A DNA stretch of 38,937 bases from Candidatus Poribacteria bacterium. GTDB lineage: Bacteria > Poribacteria > WGA-4E > UBA9662. The position numbers and the translations under genes were made by a program. Below, piece after piece: positions 15,500 through 37,574 of the stretch. The notes under the pieces were generated by a model that did not search any database, was not told the origin of the DNA, and saw only the letters and a program-made list of their open reading frames with translations. Position 1 is the first letter of the stretch; every line of letters starts with the position of its first letter. The stretch lies in contig PAQF01000044.1 of the NCBI GenBank assembly GCA_002709695.1, forward strand, positions 1 through 38,937. The letters are read 5' to 3'.

Positions 15500-15636
15500 A
15501 AACTGTTTTGATTTTCGGGATTTAAAAAACGAGAAATTTTTAAAGATTAGTCTTAAAATTATTGTATAATATATGTTTAAGCACTTTAAAGTCTAGAAGC
15601 ATTCAAATTAAAGAGAAATTTTGGAGGATACAGAGT

Positions 15637-16419
15637 ATGAAATACCAATTTATGTTAAGTTTAATATTGTTGATTCTGCTAACTAGCATTGCTCCATTAA
15701 CTCAAGCACTTAATGATCCAGCTTTGATGTTATATTTTACTTTCGATGAAGGTAAAGGCACAGAAGCTACAGGTGAAAGTGAAAATAAAATTAAAGGAAC
15801 ACTGAAAGGGAAAGCTAAATTCGTCAAGGATGGGAAATATGGTGGTGCGGTTCTGCTTGAAGACACAGACAGTCAGGTTATAGTTCCCGCGGTTTCTCAT
15901 TTGGATATTACTGAGGCGATTACAATGGAAGCTTGGATTTTTCCTATCGAAAAACAAAATGACTCCAGTATCTTAGGACGAAGAACGGCTGCAAACGCAG
16001 GTGGATATTGCATACAGTGGAGCGGTTTTGGTAAAAACTCCAAGGTAGAAACCTGGATTGGTCTACCAGGTTGGCAAGGCACACGGAATGCCCAGAAAAT
16101 TGAACCTAAATTGAACCAGTGGCATCATATAGCTGTTACTTACGACGGAAAGTTTATTCGGCAGTATGTAAATGGGGAACTGGATGCAACTAAGGAATTT
16201 GCAGCAAAAATTGCCAGCCAGAAAGTTGAATTTCATATTGGTAAAGCGCAGACAGGACTACCATCAATGATCGGTAAAATTGACGAAGTGGCGATTTATG
16301 AACGTGCACTAACCCAAGATGAAGTCAAAACTGACATGAAAAAAGTCTTAGTTGGCACAACTGCAGTTGATCCCACCAGTAAACTGGCAGCAACATGGGC
16401 CAATCTTAAAACCAAGTAG
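15637..16419 (+). CDS. exported LamG-domain (concanavalin A-like) protein, copy 1
   Basis: A 260-residue exported protein. The start is the ATG at 15637, chosen because GGAGG lies eight bases upstream and it begins a signal peptide (MKYQFMLSLILLILLTS, cleavage expected near LTQA). The mature part is one LamG/LamGL domain of about 190 residues: YFTFDEG opening strand, AWIFP, WHHIAVTYDG and the closing IGKIDEVAIYERAL. The tail VDPTSKLAATWANLK is not part of the LamG fold and is shared with the next gene. LamG domains bind glycans or proteins, so a surface or periplasmic binding role is likely. A TATAAT at 15565-15570 may be the -10 of its promoter; no -35 is clear. Confidence 0.88.
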   Translation: MKYQFMLSLILLILLTSIAPLTQALNDPALMLYFTFDEGKGTEATGESENKIKGTLKGKAKFVKDGKYGGAVLLEDTDSQVIVPAVSHLDITEAITMEAWIFPIEKQNDSSILGRRTAANAGGYCIQWSGFGKNSKVETWIGLPGWQGTRNAQKIEPKLNQWHHIAVTYDGKFIRQYVNGELDATKEFAAKIASQKVEFHIGKAQTGLPSMIGKIDEVAIYERALTQDEVKTDMKKVLVGTTAVDPTSKLAATWANLKTK

Positions 16420-16462: not shown

Positions 16463-17239
16463 ATGAAATACCAATTCATATTAAGTTTAATATTATTGGT
16501 TCTGCTAACCAGCATTGTGCCATTAGCACAAGCGCTGAATGACGATCCTGCACTAAAACTGTATTTCACCTTTGATGACGGTGCAGGAGATAAGGTGGAG
16601 GATCAGAGTCAAAGTGGGCTCAAAGGTCTATTAATGGGGAAAGCCAAACTTGTTAAAGATGGGAAATTCGGTGGTGCTGTTGAAATGTCAGATGCGAATT
16701 GTAAGATTGTCGTCGACGCTACTAAGGAACTTGATATTACCAAGGAAGTCACCATGGCAGCTTGGATTTTTCCTCTTGAGAATCAAAATGATTCTAATGT
16801 AATAGGCCTAAGAACAGCTGGTAACGCAGGTGGATACTGTATGCAATGGAGCGGTTTCGGTAACGCTGCAAAAATTGAAACCTGGATTGGTCTGCCTGGC
16901 TGGAAAGGAACACGAGACCAACAGAAAATTGAGCCTAAATTAGAAGAATGGCATCATGTGGTTGCTACCTATGATGGAAAGGATATAAAGCAATATATAG
17001 ACGGTAAACTTGATACGTCTGTGGCGGGTGGAGGGGAAATTGCCAGCCAAGACGTTGCGTTTCATGTCGGTCAAGCACAAACCGGATTGCCATCAATGTT
17101 CGGTAAAATTGACGAAGTGGCAGTTTACGATCGAGCGCTAGATTTGGATGAAATCAAGTCCGATATGGAAAATGGAGTCTATTTTGCCGTTGACCCCAAA
17201 GGTAAACTGGCAACTACATGGGCACACCTTAAGAAATAG
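16463..17239 (+). CDS. exported LamG-domain protein, copy 2
   Basis: A 258-residue paralogue of the gene just upstream. It has the same signal peptide (MKYQFILSLILLVLLTS), the same domain order and the same tail (VDPKGKLATTWAHLKK). Differences are concentrated in loops, for example DATKELDITKEV and TSVAGGGEIASQ, which might change the bound ligand. AGAGAGGAAAAC precedes the ATG, and only 43 bases separate it from copy 1, so the two are probably co-transcribed. A stem-loop lies 20 bases after its stop codon. Function is inferred only from the LamG fold: carbohydrate or protein binding outside the cell or in the periplasm. Confidence 0.88.
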   Translation: MKYQFILSLILLVLLTSIVPLAQALNDDPALKLYFTFDDGAGDKVEDQSQSGLKGLLMGKAKLVKDGKFGGAVEMSDANCKIVVDATKELDITKEVTMAAWIFPLENQNDSNVIGLRTAGNAGGYCMQWSGFGNAAKIETWIGLPGWKGTRDQQKIEPKLEEWHHVVATYDGKDIKQYIDGKLDTSVAGGGEIASQDVAFHVGQAQTGLPSMFGKIDEVAVYDRALDLDEIKSDMENGVYFAVDPKGKLATTWAHLKK

Positions 17240-29618: not shown

Positions 29619-32600
29619 TTGTCTGTTTTTGGAATTTTAAAACCACAGGAACTACGAATACACAATGCCATATGTTTCTGTGTAATGATCTTTATACTTA
29701 TAATCTGCAATCAATTTGTTTGGGGACAACAAAAGGGTTTTCAAGTTAATCCTCAAGCCATTGACAACATGGATGGGGATTCGGTTTTTAGTCCAAATGG
29801 TGATGGCGTACAAGATAAATTGCTGATCGTACTTACTATGGATGGGACAACAGGTGAATATCGTATCATCATTGATGTACATAGCCCCGGTGGAGTTGGC
29901 CAACCAGATGGTAATTTTGAACCTGATGACGACTGGATGGTCATGGGAGATTTTGGCCCAGGACCACCAAATTCAGCTGAAAAACGCATTATAATCCATG
30001 AGTGGGATGGTAAGAACCACCATTCTAGCCAAGATGCTACGTTGCGCCAACTACAGGACGGCGCATACGAGATTCAGATAGAAATCGACTTTTTTCGCAA
30101 TGATGAATTCACTCCACCAACCCCTGAGCATACTGTTAAGCTTACTTCGGTGATTGACACTAAATCCCCACAAACTTCTGCTAACCTCAGCCGGGCACAA
30201 TTTTCACCAAATGGTGACGGTCGCCGAGATCTCAACACAATTTCGTATAGTATTGCTGAAGACCTTACAGTTCTTGAACTTGAATTCGCCAATCTGACAA
30301 ATCGACCTCCAATTTCCTTAACCGATCTTACTTCTGGCAATCACACTTTCTTATGGAATGGTAAAGACGGACTTAATCAAACGATTACGGACGGCACTCA
30401 CACACTTCAACTCAAGGCAACTGATCGAGGAGGGAATACTTTAACCTCTCCGGTTGGCCAAATTCAGCTTGATACAGAATCTCCTGTTATCGCTCAAATT
30501 TCTCCTGCCAATAGCTCTTATCAGAAGACAGCAATTGGTCAAATTGCTGTTAATTTTGAATCGGACAGCGGTAGCAGTATCAATTTCGATGAGACATTAT
30601 TAACTCTTAAAAACTCGAGTGACATAAATATTGCGGGATCGCTTGAATCGTCAGGAAACCAGTTAAGGTTCTTATTTGCAAATCAGCTGGATACCGTTGA
30701 CGAAAATGATGTCTACACAGCAACAATTACAGGTGTTGACTTAGCAGGGAACAAGACGCAGACTTCTTCGACTTTTACATTTGATACGGTTGTACCTGCT
30801 ATTACAAAAATCAAGGTAAATGATAGCGCTGCCACCTCCGGAGTAAAAGCTCAAGTTAACTATGTTGAAGCTATACTACAAGACAGTGTTGGATTGAACC
30901 TGTTAGATACCACAATCCGTTTGATCCGAAACGGTGGAGAAATCGCTGGTCAGCAAACTGCGATCAATGAAACCACGATTCGTTGGGTGTTGACTACCCC
31001 ACTGGCGATTGATGGTTCGGATGATGCAGTCTATGAGATTCCAGTTACGGCAGCGGATTTAGCCGGTAACACGATCCAGCGTCAAATTAGCTTCACTTAT
31101 GATACTCAGAAACCAAGACTGGTTTCAATTTCACCAGTTGATCACACAAATTTACCTGTGAAAACAATCACCGCAAATTTCAATGATCTCAACGGAAGCG
31201 GAATCGATTTCAACACAACCAGACTGATCCTCAAAAAAGATAACGTTTTGGTTAATGGAACAACTGTTACTAATGGTGACACGCTCGAATTTCAGTTGGA
31301 TGAACCTTTAGATATGTTAGATGGTACACAGGATGGGAAATACACCGTTGACCTTAAATATGTCGACATAGCGGGAAATTCACAGAATGACATCATTGAT
31401 TTGGTCTACGACACTCGCTTACCTGTACTGCAATCAACAACACCATCAGTAAATACAACCGTTTCTTCATTAACTCAAGTGATGGTTGTTCTCAATGACC
31501 AGTTGAGTGGGATAGACCTTTCCAATACACAAACAACACTGTCTCATAATGGCATACAAATAGGAGCAACTGTTCGTTACATCGGCAAGACAACGGTTGG
31601 TCTGATCATAGCTGAACCGATTAGTCAAGCTGGTGAATATGTCATTGAAGTTACGCCAGTTGATTTCGCTGGTAACGTTGGAGCTAATACAAAAATCCCA
31701 TTTTTCTTCACTGAAGCAACGTCCATCATCGGTTTGGAGCCGGATGTAACTGATCCCGTTAGTGAACTGACAAATATTACAGCTCAGATTACGAATTATG
31801 TTGGACCTAAAATAGATTTCTCAAAGTCGACAATCACCCTTAAAACTGCTGACGGTGAAACAGTCAGCGCTAATCCAATCGAAAATAACGGTTTGGAGCA
31901 GTTGCAGTGGAAGATCCTAAAACCATTGCCGGTCGATGGGTCGGTCGATGGCAGTTATGTCTTAAATGTGAGTTATGTTGATATCGCTGGCCGGGAATTC
32001 TCTCAGGATTTTCCCGTCATATTTGATACGCACGCACCGAAGATCACAGATGAATCTAGACCCGAAGACCGAAATGTGTTAGCAACTAATCAAGTTTCAG
32101 TAGAGTTTGAAGTTATCGATGTATCGAGTGAGATAGATTTCTCCTCTTCAACTGTTCAGCTTCTGAATCAAGATGGAACATCAATTCAAGGTGAAACTGA
32201 AAATAATGGCAAAGACAAGATTTCCTTTCGTTCTGCTTTGCTAACTAGTGCTGGAACGTATGTACTAAACGTTACACTGGCTGACATCGCTGGTAATGTT
32301 GGTGTGACGCAACAATTTAATTATCAACTTGAAATTGCTTCGCCGAGTGTTGCTTCAATTACACCTGCCAACCGCTCAAAGGTACAAGATTTAAAACAAA
32401 TTACCGTTGAGTTAATCGATGGCAATGGAGCAGGTCTTGATTTCTCCAGTGATGCGACATCAGCTGAACTTCGAAATTCTAGCGGTCAGTTAGTTGATAG
32501 CAAAATAACCAACAATGGAATTGACAAAATCACTATCAAGATTGCACCAGAACTTTTAAAAAATGGTAGCGATGATGGTGAGTACACAGTTAGCATTCAA

Positions 32601-35600
32601 CCAATCGACAAACGTGGGATGGTTGGCGATACCCGTCAATTCGCAATCAACTACGATTCACAAAATCCAATTATTTCTTCGATAACTTCTATTGATACAA
32701 CCAAAAACATTTCTTATTTTAATCAACCTGTAAATCGTTTCGAAGCTGGTGTCACCGATTTAGGTTCAGGCCTTGATTTCAGTCAGTCCTCAGTCCAAAT
32801 ATTAGACGCTAACAGCAAAGTCGTTGCAGGGACTCAAGGGCATGACAACAATAACAGCTTCTGGTTGCAATTGGATCAACCGTTTACACAGGTTGGAAAT
32901 CAAGACGGCCAGTACGTAGTTCGTGTTAAGGCAACTGATAACGCCGGAAATAGTGTTACTGAAAACTTTAAGCTTCATTATGACACACAACCTCCGTCAA
33001 CTAATCTCAACGCTTACCCGAAACAGATTAGCTCACCAATAGACAAAATTTCTATCGATTTCACTGATCCAAGTGGGGTAGATTTTTCTCAAACCTCCAT
33101 AGTTTTGTTTGGCCCTAATGGCAATTCGGTAACTGCAAACCAAACGACTGACGGCCAAAAGGCAGTCTCAATTCAATTTGATACGCTAGAAACTGATGGT
33201 TCGGACGATGGTACTTATCAAATACAAGTTAACGCTGTAGATGTAGCCGGTAATGCCTCAAGTTTTGTCCACCAGTTTTTGTATAGTACTCAGAAACCAG
33301 AAATCGCTTCAACGATCCCCGAAGATTTCGGTGTTGTCAACGAGTTGGGGACTGTGTTAGTGAACTTTATAGACCAAAGTGGTAAAGGGATCAACTTCGA
33401 TCAATCCAAGGTGAGTCTCTTGGATCCCAAGGGGGAATTGGTCACTGGTCGGCAAGAAATAGATAAGTCCCAAGCAGTTATCAATTGGGTGCTAAAACAG
33501 AAACTACCTCGAGATGGTTCTGCTGATGGGGAATATACAATTCAGATCTCAGCAGTTGATTTAGCTAAAAACAGTGTGGACAGCAAAATGACATTTACTG
33601 TTGATACCATTGTACCATCTCTGAAGCAGGTACAACTGGACACAAAAAAGCCTACCGAATTGACAGATCAGTTAGTTGTAGTTAAAGAAACGTTTTCCAG
33701 TATTACTGTTGTTCTGTCTGATGGAGGTACTGGGGTTGATCTGGATGGAACCACAGTGCAACTAGTTGATCCACAAGGAGAAGTAATTGGTGTTAACCTA
33801 ATCAGCAACAAGTCTGATAGTATCACAGCTAGTTTTTCCACCTTATATGAAGTTGGTACATACAAAATTGGGATTTCTCCTAAAGACAATGCTGAAAATG
33901 TTGGTCACATGGTTGAATACCAATTTCACCTTGACCTTCCACTACCAACAGTCTCTAAAATTGAGGTTGGGGAATTTCCCCGTCGAATTGTTGCTACCTT
34001 AGGTGGATCAAACCTCAATACTTCGTCAAATGGTTCGTCTATTTCTGTAACGCGGACACAAGGATCAGTTGGTGGGCAAATGACGAGATCATCTACACAA
34101 GTGGTATGGTCAACTCTTCAGCTTGAAACTGATGGATCTGATGATGATATCTATACTATTACAGTGACGCCGATTGATGTGTTTGGCAGGTCTGGTGTGC
34201 CTCGAATACAAAAACATATATTCGACACACAAGAACCGGAGATTGTTTCTATTACGGAGGTTGATCTAGATCAACCTGTCTCTTATCTCAGTTCCCCGAT
34301 TTCACAGATTGCCATGCAAATTCAGGATTTAGGGCCAGCAGAACTCGAAATTAGTAATCAGAAGATCAACTTGAAAAACGAATCTGGGGAACAAATTTCG
34401 GCTACTATCACCAATGATGGTAACGAATGGGTATTCTTAACACTTAATCAATCATTAGTAACTAATGGATCAGATGACGGCAGTTATACTGTTACTATTG
34501 ACCTGGTGGATAAAGCTGGTAATAAGAAACAAGTCTCACACCGAATTACTTACGATACACTAGCACCAACTTTGGTTAGTACCACTCCGGCGAACAATTC
34601 AGAAATCCGAGAAGCAATCACTGTTGTTATTGCAAATGTCCAAGATACAGGGAATAGCAAGATTGACTTTGCTCAAACCACGTTAACACTTCTGAATCAA
34701 GATGGTACTCCTGTTAATGGAGAATTTAGTCATGATGGTCAATCTAAGCTTACTCTGACAGCTGATAGTCTTAAGGAAAATGGAACTTATACAATTCGAG
34801 TTGAATTGATCGATCGCGCTGGTAACACAATGACGAGTGAAAACCACTTCTTGTACTTAATGCATTTACCGTCTGTCAGTTCAACAATTCCTAAGACATC
34901 CCCGGCTGAAGAAGCTTTTACAAATGAATCGTTTAGTCAAGTCGAATTAAAGCTTGATAGCAGCAAATCCAACCTTTCAACAATTTCACTGATTGGTCCT
35001 GATGGTAAAGTTATACCAGGGCAACAATCGAGATCCAGCGATCGATTGGTTTACGAACTTTTTCAAAAGCCAGAAGAAGATGGATCTGATGATGGACAAT
35101 ACACCATTGTCTTCAATCCGGTCAATAGTGATGGAGGTCAAGGCGATAGCCAAAACTTCACCTTCATTTATGACACGATCGTCCCTGAAATTGTAGAAGA
35201 TTCGATTAGTATGACTGTCGTTGAACCAGGTATCAACAACTCGCTTTTGGAACTTCAGGTAACAATGTCTGATGAGGAACCAAGTTCAAGTCTTGATTGG
35301 GAAGATGACAAGCTTGCATACATTCAATTATTCCGAATAGCTGCCGACGGATCCAAATCAAAGGTCGTCGGCGTTGAATCAATTGACGAAGCAGCTAACA
35401 CCGTTTCACTTATCCTAACTAAACCGCTTGCCAGTGATGGTAGTCAGGATGGCAACTATTTGGTTCAGTTTACTGCTAAAGATCAAGCGGGGAATTTGTC
35501 CAAAGTGTTCGAATATGATTTTATCTATGACACACGTCCACCTGTGATTGATATTGCCGCCATGACATTAAATGAGCAACCATTGATTTTAAATGCTAAT

Positions 35601-36557
35601 GATCCTGATTATCCTTCGGTAGCTGGACGTGGTGCATCAGTCTCAGTTACAGCAAAGATGTCTGATGCGGGCCAAGGTGTTGATCTAGCTAGATCGTCAA
35701 TTCGAGTTCGTTCTCCAAATGGAGATGAAGTTGCTGGAGATGTTGTGCATAATGGTTTAGATCAAGTTACTTTTAAATCTGCCGGTTTGCTGACAAATGA
35801 AGGAATGTATAAAATTACTATTACCAGTTCAGGCCTTGATCCTGAGAACCTCGGCTTTCAACCTACAACTACGCTTGCTACAGAATTTCTCTATGAGATA
35901 ACCCCACCAGTTGTTCAATTGACCGATCGAGGTGAAACAGAAGTTAAGGACGATCCACTCAGACTCGGTGGTACAGCCGTTGATTCACCACAAAATAGTA
36001 TTCCTGCTTCTGGAGTTGTCAGTGTGGAAATTGTAGGGAAAACTCCAGAAGGTGAAAACATCGACCCTGTTTTGGCAGAGGATGTCAGTCAAGGAAGCCA
36101 AGAGCCGTGGAGCCTTTGGGAAATTGATTATCTTCCTCCAACTTCTGGTGAATATGTTCTCAATATTCGTGTTACGGACCGGGCAGGAAACGCCGAGGTT
36201 TATGAAGAATTAACTGTTGATTTCACTGTTTCTCTTGGATTTAAAGGCGAAACTTATTGTTGGCCTAATCCACTCAAGAAATCTCAGGGGGACATAGCCC
36301 ATATCTCTTTCGATCCTAATGTCTCAAACAATGAGACTGTTGATATTATCCTGAGTGTCTATGATTTTTCCGGTTACTTGGTCTATCAAAAAGATTATCC
36401 TAGAATGCAAGCAGGACGTACTGATCAAGTTGTAACATGGAATCTCAAAAATGATTCAAATAGGAGTGTTGCTCGGGGAATATACATCTTCCGCTTGGAA
36501 GCAATTCGTGGAGACGATAATGCAAATGTTATTGGTAAGATTCTTGTGGTTGAATAG
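29619..36557 (+). CDS. giant exported Ig-like repeat surface protein with FlgD/T9SS-like C-terminal domain
   Basis: A 2312-residue protein. After a signal peptide (hydrophobic core about residues 19-35, cleavage near VWGQ) come two modules opening with FSPNGDG (residues 57-63 and 195-201), as in FlgD-like and gliding-motility-associated domains. From residue 290 to about 2097, some 17 Ig-like repeats of about 106 residues follow, most ending in the pattern DGSxDGxYxIxVxxxDxAGN and then YDTxxP. A different Ig-like module precedes a final domain from about residue 2208, with WPNPL and ending ARGIYIFRLEA...GKILVVE, the FlgD/type IX secretion C-terminal type. It has no catalytic motif; adhesion or surface-layer function is the likely role. 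The start is TTG at 29619, supported by AGGGGG six bases upstream. A PorV-like gene follows. Confidence 0.9.
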   Translation: MSVFGILKPQELRIHNAICFCVMIFILIICNQFVWGQQKGFQVNPQAIDNMDGDSVFSPNGDGVQDKLLIVLTMDGTTGEYRIIIDVHSPGGVGQPDGNFEPDDDWMVMGDFGPGPPNSAEKRIIIHEWDGKNHHSSQDATLRQLQDGAYEIQIEIDFFRNDEFTPPTPEHTVKLTSVIDTKSPQTSANLSRAQFSPNGDGRRDLNTISYSIAEDLTVLELEFANLTNRPPISLTDLTSGNHTFLWNGKDGLNQTITDGTHTLQLKATDRGGNTLTSPVGQIQLDTESPVIAQISPANSSYQKTAIGQIAVNFESDSGSSINFDETLLTLKNSSDINIAGSLESSGNQLRFLFANQLDTVDENDVYTATITGVDLAGNKTQTSSTFTFDTVVPAITKIKVNDSAATSGVKAQVNYVEAILQDSVGLNLLDTTIRLIRNGGEIAGQQTAINETTIRWVLTTPLAIDGSDDAVYEIPVTAADLAGNTIQRQISFTYDTQKPRLVSISPVDHTNLPVKTITANFNDLNGSGIDFNTTRLILKKDNVLVNGTTVTNGDTLEFQLDEPLDMLDGTQDGKYTVDLKYVDIAGNSQNDIIDLVYDTRLPVLQSTTPSVNTTVSSLTQVMVVLNDQLSGIDLSNTQTTLSHNGIQIGATVRYIGKTTVGLIIAEPISQAGEYVIEVTPVDFAGNVGANTKIPFFFTEATSIIGLEPDVTDPVSELTNITAQITNYVGPKIDFSKSTITLKTADGETVSANPIENNGLEQLQWKILKPLPVDGSVDGSYVLNVSYVDIAGREFSQDFPVIFDTHAPKITDESRPEDRNVLATNQVSVEFEVIDVSSEIDFSSSTVQLLNQDGTSIQGETENNGKDKISFRSALLTSAGTYVLNVTLADIAGNVGVTQQFNYQLEIASPSVASITPANRSKVQDLKQITVELIDGNGAGLDFSSDATSAELRNSSGQLVDSKITNNGIDKITIKIAPELLKNGSDDGEYTVSIQPIDKRGMVGDTRQFAINYDSQNPIISSITSIDTTKNISYFNQPVNRFEAGVTDLGSGLDFSQSSVQILDANSKVVAGTQGHDNNNSFWLQLDQPFTQVGNQDGQYVVRVKATDNAGNSVTENFKLHYDTQPPSTNLNAYPKQISSPIDKISIDFTDPSGVDFSQTSIVLFGPNGNSVTANQTTDGQKAVSIQFDTLETDGSDDGTYQIQVNAVDVAGNASSFVHQFLYSTQKPEIASTIPEDFGVVNELGTVLVNFIDQSGKGINFDQSKVSLLDPKGELVTGRQEIDKSQAVINWVLKQKLPRDGSADGEYTIQISAVDLAKNSVDSKMTFTVDTIVPSLKQVQLDTKKPTELTDQLVVVKETFSSITVVLSDGGTGVDLDGTTVQLVDPQGEVIGVNLISNKSDSITASFSTLYEVGTYKIGISPKDNAENVGHMVEYQFHLDLPLPTVSKIEVGEFPRRIVATLGGSNLNTSSNGSSISVTRTQGSVGGQMTRSSTQVVWSTLQLETDGSDDDIYTITVTPIDVFGRSGVPRIQKHIFDTQEPEIVSITEVDLDQPVSYLSSPISQIAMQIQDLGPAELEISNQKINLKNESGEQISATITNDGNEWVFLTLNQSLVTNGSDDGSYTVTIDLVDKAGNKKQVSHRITYDTLAPTLVSTTPANNSEIREAITVVIANVQDTGNSKIDFAQTTLTLLNQDGTPVNGEFSHDGQSKLTLTADSLKENGTYTIRVELIDRAGNTMTSENHFLYLMHLPSVSSTIPKTSPAEEAFTNESFSQVELKLDSSKSNLSTISLIGPDGKVIPGQQSRSSDRLVYELFQKPEEDGSDDGQYTIVFNPVNSDGGQGDSQNFTFIYDTIVPEIVEDSISMTVVEPGINNSLLELQVTMSDEEPSSSLDWEDDKLAYIQLFRIAADGSKSKVVGVESIDEAANTVSLILTKPLASDGSQDGNYLVQFTAKDQAGNLSKVFEYDFIYDTRPPVIDIAAMTLNEQPLILNANDPDYPSVAGRGASVSVTAKMSDAGQGVDLARSSIRVRSPNGDEVAGDVVHNGLDQVTFKSAGLLTNEGMYKITITSSGLDPENLGFQPTTTLATEFLYEITPPVVQLTDRGETEVKDDPLRLGGTAVDSPQNSIPASGVVSVEIVGKTPEGENIDPVLAEDVSQGSQEPWSLWEIDYLPPTSGEYVLNIRVTDRAGNAEVYEELTVDFTVSLGFKGETYCWPNPLKKSQGDIAHISFDPNVSNNETVDIILSVYDFSGYLVYQKDYPRMQAGRTDQVVTWNLKNDSNRSVARGIYIFRLEAIRGDDNANVIGKILVVE
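30486..35909 (+). repeat. array of about 17 Ig-like protein repeats inside the giant gene
   Basis: The repeats average 319 bases (about 106 residues). They are recognised in protein by a recurring Asp-rich DGSxDG loop, a D-x-A-G-N turn and a closing YDT-x-x-P. At the DNA level the codons for the same motif differ between copies, and some copies (for example numbers 4, 6, 11 and 14) lack the full DGSxDG loop. The array therefore looks old and diverged, not recently expanded. Confidence 0.85.
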
Positions 36558-36653
36558 AAAGTGCCAATTCATTTTTGAAGCAACAAATACCATGAAACTA
36601 GCAAACAAATTAATATTGATAATTGAATGTTCATCATGAGAAGGAAACTTGAA

Positions 36654-37574
36654 TTGAAAAAACGGCTTCTGATTATATGTCTGTTCATTATAGCAACTGC
36701 CGCTTGGTCTGTTGAGATTCATGAAGCAGCGGGAACAACTGCAGCAGCATTTTTAAAAGTTGATAGTGGTACTCGTCCTATGGCCATGGGAGGTGCTTTC
36801 ACAGGTTTAGCCAACGACATTAACACATTATTCTGGAATCCTGCTGGATTAACCTCAATTGAATTCCGTGAGTTTTCAGCCATGCAGAACTTTTCTGTTG
36901 CTGATATTAACTCACAAGCAATCGGCTATGCACAGCGGCTTAATCAAAAGACTGCGTTTGGTATCGGTTTTCAGGGGGCCTTCACACAAATCGAATATCG
37001 TGCTCAACCAACAGATAAACCTGATGACCTGGCAACAGTAGGTGGGTTTGCTACTGGTTTAACACTGGCTTACGAATTAATACCTGAAATATCAATAGGT
37101 GGAACAGCAAAGCTTATCCATCAAAGGCTAAGTGTAGAAAATTCGTTAGGTTTCGCTGGCGATTTTGGCATGGTCTTGCGTCCGATGGGAAATCTGCTGG
37201 GATTAGGTATGTCGCTACAACATGCTGGACTGATTGATACTGAAGAAGACTTACCTATGACAGCACGTGCGGGTATATCCTTTACTCCACTGAACGAGTT
37301 ATCTGTGGCTGGTGATGTTACTTATCCCTTGGTTGGTGATTTTCCCAGCGTACACGCAGGGCTTGAGTATTGGTTTTATGATCTCATCGCTTTTCGAGTT
37401 GGTTATAGCCTGAATCAGGGTGAAAGCCTAAAAAATGGTCCAACAACTGGTATAGGCCTGCGACGAGATGGTAGATCATCTTTAGTCAACACTAACTTCC
37501 AGTTTGATTATGCTCTGGTGCCAAGTGCCGATGTAGGTAACGCACACAGAATTGCTATCCTCGGTCGATTTTAG
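36654..37574 (+). CDS. PorV/PorQ-family outer-membrane beta-barrel protein
   Basis: An outer-membrane protein of about 306 residues related to PorV/PorQ. The mature N-terminus carries the family signature AAAFLKVDSGTRPMAMGGAF and DINTLFWNPAGLT; the rest alternates short amphipathic strands, and the chain ends in IAILGRF with an aromatic last residue, as in barrels. I chose TTG at 36654: AAGGA lies eight bases before it and it opens a standard signal peptide (MKKRLLIICLFIIATAAW). The ATG at 36627 would add nine charged residues to the front. In Bacteroidetes, PorV shuttles type IX cargo at the outer membrane. It follows the giant protein by about 96 bases and its stop directly abuts the next gene's stop. 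Confidence 0.87.
   Translation: MKKRLLIICLFIIATAAWSVEIHEAAGTTAAAFLKVDSGTRPMAMGGAFTGLANDINTLFWNPAGLTSIEFREFSAMQNFSVADINSQAIGYAQRLNQKTAFGIGFQGAFTQIEYRAQPTDKPDDLATVGGFATGLTLAYELIPEISIGGTAKLIHQRLSVENSLGFAGDFGMVLRPMGNLLGLGMSLQHAGLIDTEEDLPMTARAGISFTPLNELSVAGDVTYPLVGDFPSVHAGLEYWFYDLIAFRVGYSLNQGESLKNGPTTGIGLRRDGRSSLVNTNFQFDYALVPSADVGNAHRIAILGRF

Follow-up and report, generated by a model that had tools for sequence, protein, structure and literature searches.

We propose that, in Poribacteria, a giant Ig-repeat protein and the outer-membrane barrel encoded downstream of it probably belong together as cargo and dedicated carrier/anchor within a type IX-like secretion system (T9SS). The window analysed here is contig C44 (38,937 nucleotides) of a Candidatus Poribacteria genome. 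An earlier note on this DNA had described a 2312-residue exported protein followed on the same strand by a barrel of the PorV/PorQ family, and had suggested that the two might constitute a dedicated pair for export or anchoring. Both open reading frames are confirmed, on one strand and with the barrel downstream (Table 1). The suggested pairing is supported by SprA-like and PorU-like genes in the genome, by a C-terminus of the PorU/PorZ type and by a conserved adjacency of the two genes.

Table 1. Coordinates of the giant gene, the barrel gene and their parts within the window.
Feature	Position	Strand	Remarks
Giant Ig-repeat cargo protein (putative)	29619..36557	+	2312 aa, TTG start; orthologues in 81/85 Poribacteria via the C-terminal domain
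Export (Sec-type) signal region	29619..29729	+	approximately residues 1–37; hydrophobic stretch AICFCVMIFILIICNQFVWG; predicted by eye from the sequence
N-terminal region, FlgD_ig/CHU_C-like	29766..30488	+	FSPNGDG motif twice (residues 57 and 195); predicted distal tip
Tandem bacterial Ig domains (Big_13 type)	30486..36236	+	repeated DGSDDGxY motifs; match to NF033510
C-terminal sorting-type domain, PorU/PorZ class	36240..36554	+	profile and fold matches; length in 21 orthologues
Gap between cargo and barrel genes	36558..36626	+	69 bp
PorV/PorQ-family outer-membrane barrel	36627..37574	+	315 aa, signal peptide of about 27 aa, C-terminal Phe; family profile match

The TTG start of the giant appears plausible, given the sequence AGGGGGA upstream. 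The protein matches Big_13 with 189.5 bits and Ca_tandemer with 64.7 bits (cut-off 50), and scores above the cut-off of NF033510, an NCBIfam model of a Ca2+-stabilised adhesin repeat. Its length varies widely across orthologues, up to a maximum of 3639 aa. The giant is predicted to be a rope-like protein of the cell surface with a putative role as adhesin. Comparison of orthologues displays a median identity of 42–51% over approximately the last 800 residues and of 31–41% over the first 1500; the idea of a special conservation of the C-terminal domain alone is weakened by this, as the last 800 residues or so are all better conserved than the first 1500.

The C-terminal domain of the giant comprises about 105 aa. 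It had been described as a domain of FlgD/T9SS type, of which the T9SS part holds, with PorU as the best match, while scores of the domain remain below the cut-offs of TIGR04183 (Por_Secre_tail; 17.8–18.4 bits, cut-off 23) and, when it is scanned alone, of FlgD_ig (PF13860; 24.3 bits, gathering score 27). The score for Pfam CHU_C is likewise below the cut-off (24.1 bits, cut-off 27), and TIGR04131 (type B) gives no match to this domain at E ≤ 1. Among the orthologous C-terminal domains, 17 of 21 are matched by TIGR04183 at E ≤ 1, and all 21 are matched by the NCBIfam models of PorU and PorZ. A profile built from these 21 sequences and searched against the PDB finds PorU first (6za2, E 8.8e-10) and PorZ next (5m11, E 0.0094); RemZ follows at E 1.5, and FlgD is not found up to E 10. 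A Foldseek search with a model of Ig plus C-terminal domain also ranks PorU first (E 2.9e-5, TM 0.38), which is taken as supporting evidence only, given the moderate quality of the model (pLDDT 63).

The length of the domain points in the same direction. Counted from the [W/Y/F]P[N/S]P motif, the 21 orthologues of the giant have 96–103 aa up to the C-terminus. The C-terminal domains of PorU and PorZ in P. gingivalis, which are not removed, comprise 108 and 96 residues, as compared to 67–88 in the other domains of this type (PMC11285876). A different, stereotyped kind is seen in the bulk sorting domains of this genome: all nine that were sampled (L001–L008, L052) measure 89 residues from their YPNPFNPETW start to the C-terminus, mostly ending with K(M/L)I(I/V)LK. 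By profile and length, the domain of the giant is thus closest to PorU and PorZ, the uncleaved kind that is kept on a PorV/PorQ barrel, with FlgD clearly lower, and the C-terminus is probably more than a generic FlgD fold.

The barrel is a member of the PorV/PorQ family by its match to the NCBIfam model PorV_fam (NF033709; 121.9 bits, curated cut-off 90), which also matches 20 of 20 barrel orthologues tested, with PorQ as the best specific model. Judged by the curated equivalog cut-offs, it is neither PorV proper (NF033710; 38.2 bits, cut-off 250) nor PorQ proper (NF033711; 56.8 bits, cut-off 220). Searched against the PDB, a profile of 20 orthologues finds PorV as the sole protein (6h3i_F, E 4.7e-14). 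Modelled together by AlphaFold2 from an alignment of five rows, and read in frame across the gap, the C-terminal domain and the barrel reached no more than pLDDT 35 and pTM 0.28.

Conservation of the pair was assessed by searching the barrel and the C-terminal domain of the giant independently in 85 Poribacteria genomes and comparing the matches by position. Both are present in 81 genomes, whereas the other four are without either; in these four, which lack a match to the domain, the best barrel hit is at the level of a paralogue only. Since the two genes are neighbours, the joint absence may reflect assembly gaps. Domain and barrel share a contig in 77 of the 81 genomes, on one strand in every case and at a median distance of 112 bp between the matches; in 74 of these 77 they lie within 500 bp, and in three approximately one gene lies between them. 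At locus L119 the barrel is present one gene downstream of the giant. In the remaining four genomes the two are on separate contigs, with at least two of these near a contig end. Outside the genus, the immediate neighbour genes of the window are kept in 0 of 35 loci, and the pair is kept in 35 of 35. Domain and barrel each display approximately 50% identity across orthologues. The adjacency is therefore conserved across the phylum and is not a local accident.

The genome holds further candidate parts of a type IX-like machine. It contains 40 matches to TIGR04183 and 21 match segments of PorV_fam. A SprA-like protein matches the SprA model in four collinear stretches (165.9 bits, below the curated cut-off of 200), and such a protein is present in 84 of 85 Poribacteria genomes; SprA itself was not found in the PDB by this protein alone, nor with a profile of nine rows. 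One copy (L085, on contig C30 of genome G006) differs from every other Poribacteria copy, with a score of 508 bits, above the cut-off. Two C25 proteases of this genome are PorU-like (404.1 and 370 bits, below the cut-off of 420), with matches in 85 of 85 genomes. A PDB search with such a PorU-like protease, a candidate sortase, returns PorU (6za2) at E 1.8e-33, ahead of the gingipains. Both proteases (L053:5839-11835 and L054:7709-13732) are of about 2000 aa and have T9SS-type ends, and neither adjoins a gene of the PorV family.

GldL, GldM and GldN are motor and ring parts of the Bacteroidota system. No match to GldL/PorL, GldM/PorM or GldN/PorN above cut-off was obtained in the 85 genomes, a result that reads as "not detected" and not as "absent", the models being derived from Bacteroidota and lacking a true positive control. 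The search for T9SS genes which the earlier note had called for is hence answered in part, with SprA-like and PorU-like genes found in the genome and the phylum, but not the three motor components. Tentatively, this may suggest a phylum-wide type IX-like system in Poribacteria without the known GldLMN motor, which would consist of an outer-membrane half (a SprA-like translocon, a PorU-like protease and many barrels of the PorV/PorQ family) and in which individual giants would have an anchor barrel of their own. If the motor is really absent, what powers the export becomes the question.

Cargo proteins of Bacteroidota bind with their C-terminal domain to loops of PorV inside the SprA pore, and the domain exits sideways together with PorV (PMC10994853). 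PorU-PorV and PorZ-PorQ form 1:1 complexes (PMC5562754), and SprB is both carried and anchored by SprF (PMC9143113, PMC12618676). By analogy with these pairs, transport and retention of the giant are the most likely roles of the barrel described here. According to this model, the signal peptide would take the giant across the inner membrane, and the protein would then exit via the SprA-like translocon, led by its C-terminal domain. The neighbouring barrel of the PorV/PorQ family would bind this domain, draw it from the translocon and keep hold of it, and the Ig stalk would subsequently project from the cell surface, its N-terminal tip being the part farthest from the cell. Retention by the barrel appears most likely over a covalent attachment, because the domain belongs with the longer ones of PorU and PorZ, which are not cut off in Porphyromonas.

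It is nevertheless conceivable, if unlikely, that the barrel serves as a shuttle only, and that a PorU-like protease then cuts off the domain, leaving the giant to be released or covalently attached like a type A cargo. The PorU-like proteases, two in this genome and matched in every genome of the set, would be at hand for such a step. The domain, however, resembles uncleaved PorU and PorZ in its length and not the sampled bulk domains (PMC11285876), and a dedicated barrel would be needless if a shared PorV sufficed.

The barrel could also be an ordinary transporter of small molecules of the FadL type, with the gene order kept for shared regulation only. PorV itself belongs to the FadL family of barrels (PMC9143113), and there is a weak match of the barrel to Toluene_X/FadL (28.9 bits, below the cut-off of 29.7); given that PorV is the sole PDB match of the barrel profile, that the pairing is kept over the phylum although the flanks change, and that this genome has a further PorV-family barrel next to a different giant with a sorting domain (see below), we regard this explanation as quite improbable. 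Very little probability is assigned to a C-terminal domain that is a generic Ig fold of FlgD type with no sorting role, in which case the giant would reach the surface by another route. PorU and PorZ outscore FlgD in both profile and fold searches, and the domain occurs in a genome with numerous TIGR04183 matches, a SprA-like gene and PorU-like proteases; on the other hand, FlgD_ig and FlgD matches do exist, with FlgD models weaker than PorU and PorZ on the orthologous domains and one of them weakly matching 21 of 21, and the motor parts are missing.

The proposed pair of giant and barrel has a counterpart in the same genome. On contig C17, a 2506-aa Ig/PKD protein with an end of TIGR04183 type is followed by another barrel of the PorV family; in all 30 loci that were read in relatives, this C-terminal domain immediately precedes the barrel. 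A third gene comes after the barrel and encodes a LysM domain, which usually binds peptidoglycan, in 6 of 6 copies tested. An Ig/PKD giant, a PorV-family barrel and a LysM-carrying gene thus make up a second conserved operon (L041:7376-16784 on C17; L143–L172 in relatives), an arrangement reminiscent of PorP with PorE, which binds peptidoglycan (PMC9143113). Two more PorV-family barrels of this genome are located beside genes with C-termini of FlgD/sorting type (L045:7172-10343 and L040:9086-11445). Barrels with a sorting-domain neighbour amount to 4 of 18 in this genome, compared to approximately 0.3 expected by chance (P ~3e-4), a rough estimate that assumes 4400 genes and hand-called pairs.

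A short C-terminal tail of the approximate form VdPkxKLaTTWGkLK recurs on exported proteins whose bodies differ, LamG being present in some. It is found in the window (15562-16419 and 16463-17239) and at loci L034, L045, L049, L050, L052, L100 and L106–L133. Tails of this type are displayed by 37 of 646 open reading frames, many of which are mutual orthologues, against 0.055 expected from shuffling of the tails, and none of the Pfam or NCBIfam families extends over the tail in the proteins scanned. It may serve Poribacteria as another sorting tail at the C-terminus.

TIGR04183 domains in Poribacteria were reported by Kamke et al. (2014), who detected none of the structural genes of the Por system and did not settle the route (PMC3909097). 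In reviews, T9SS is assigned to Bacteroidota and other FCB phyla (PMC11205867, PMC11285876). Our literature search, with most subscription journals outside its range, found no report on T9SS parts or on the giant–barrel pair in Poribacteria. The components described here provide a concrete candidate route for the sorting-domain proteins reported earlier, and the data suggest that cognate pairing of cargo and carrier, as described for PorP/SprF barrels and their type B domains, extends to barrels of the PorV/PorQ family.

With its long tandem Ig stalk and repeated acidic DGSDDG motifs, the giant is similar to the Ca2+-stabilised giant adhesins with NF033510 repeats. Many adhesins of this kind leave the cell by type I secretion; the Poribacteria giant, unlike these, ends in a T9SS-type domain. 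The pair as a whole resembles PorU-PorV and PorZ-PorQ of P. gingivalis, in which a surface protein with a long C-terminal domain is combined with a barrel of the PorV/PorQ family, the families being the same by profile (PMC5562754). The pairs of the P. gingivalis attachment complex have a sortase or propeller as passenger, whereas the passenger in Poribacteria is a giant Ig stalk; in addition, the phylum differs, and the Poribacteria barrel is below both equivalog cut-offs, of PorV and of PorQ. In its proposed arrangement, with a giant adhesin-like cargo beside its own barrel as both carrier and anchor, the pair is also like SprB-SprF of Flavobacterium johnsoniae and other pairs of type B cargo and PorP/SprF (PMC12618676, PMC9143113). 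One PorV is reported to be common to all type A domains in F. johnsoniae (PMC12618676, PMC9143113). The F. johnsoniae pairs combine type B domains with PorP/SprF barrels, whereas the pair in Poribacteria combines a domain of PorU/PorZ type with a barrel of the PorV/PorQ family.
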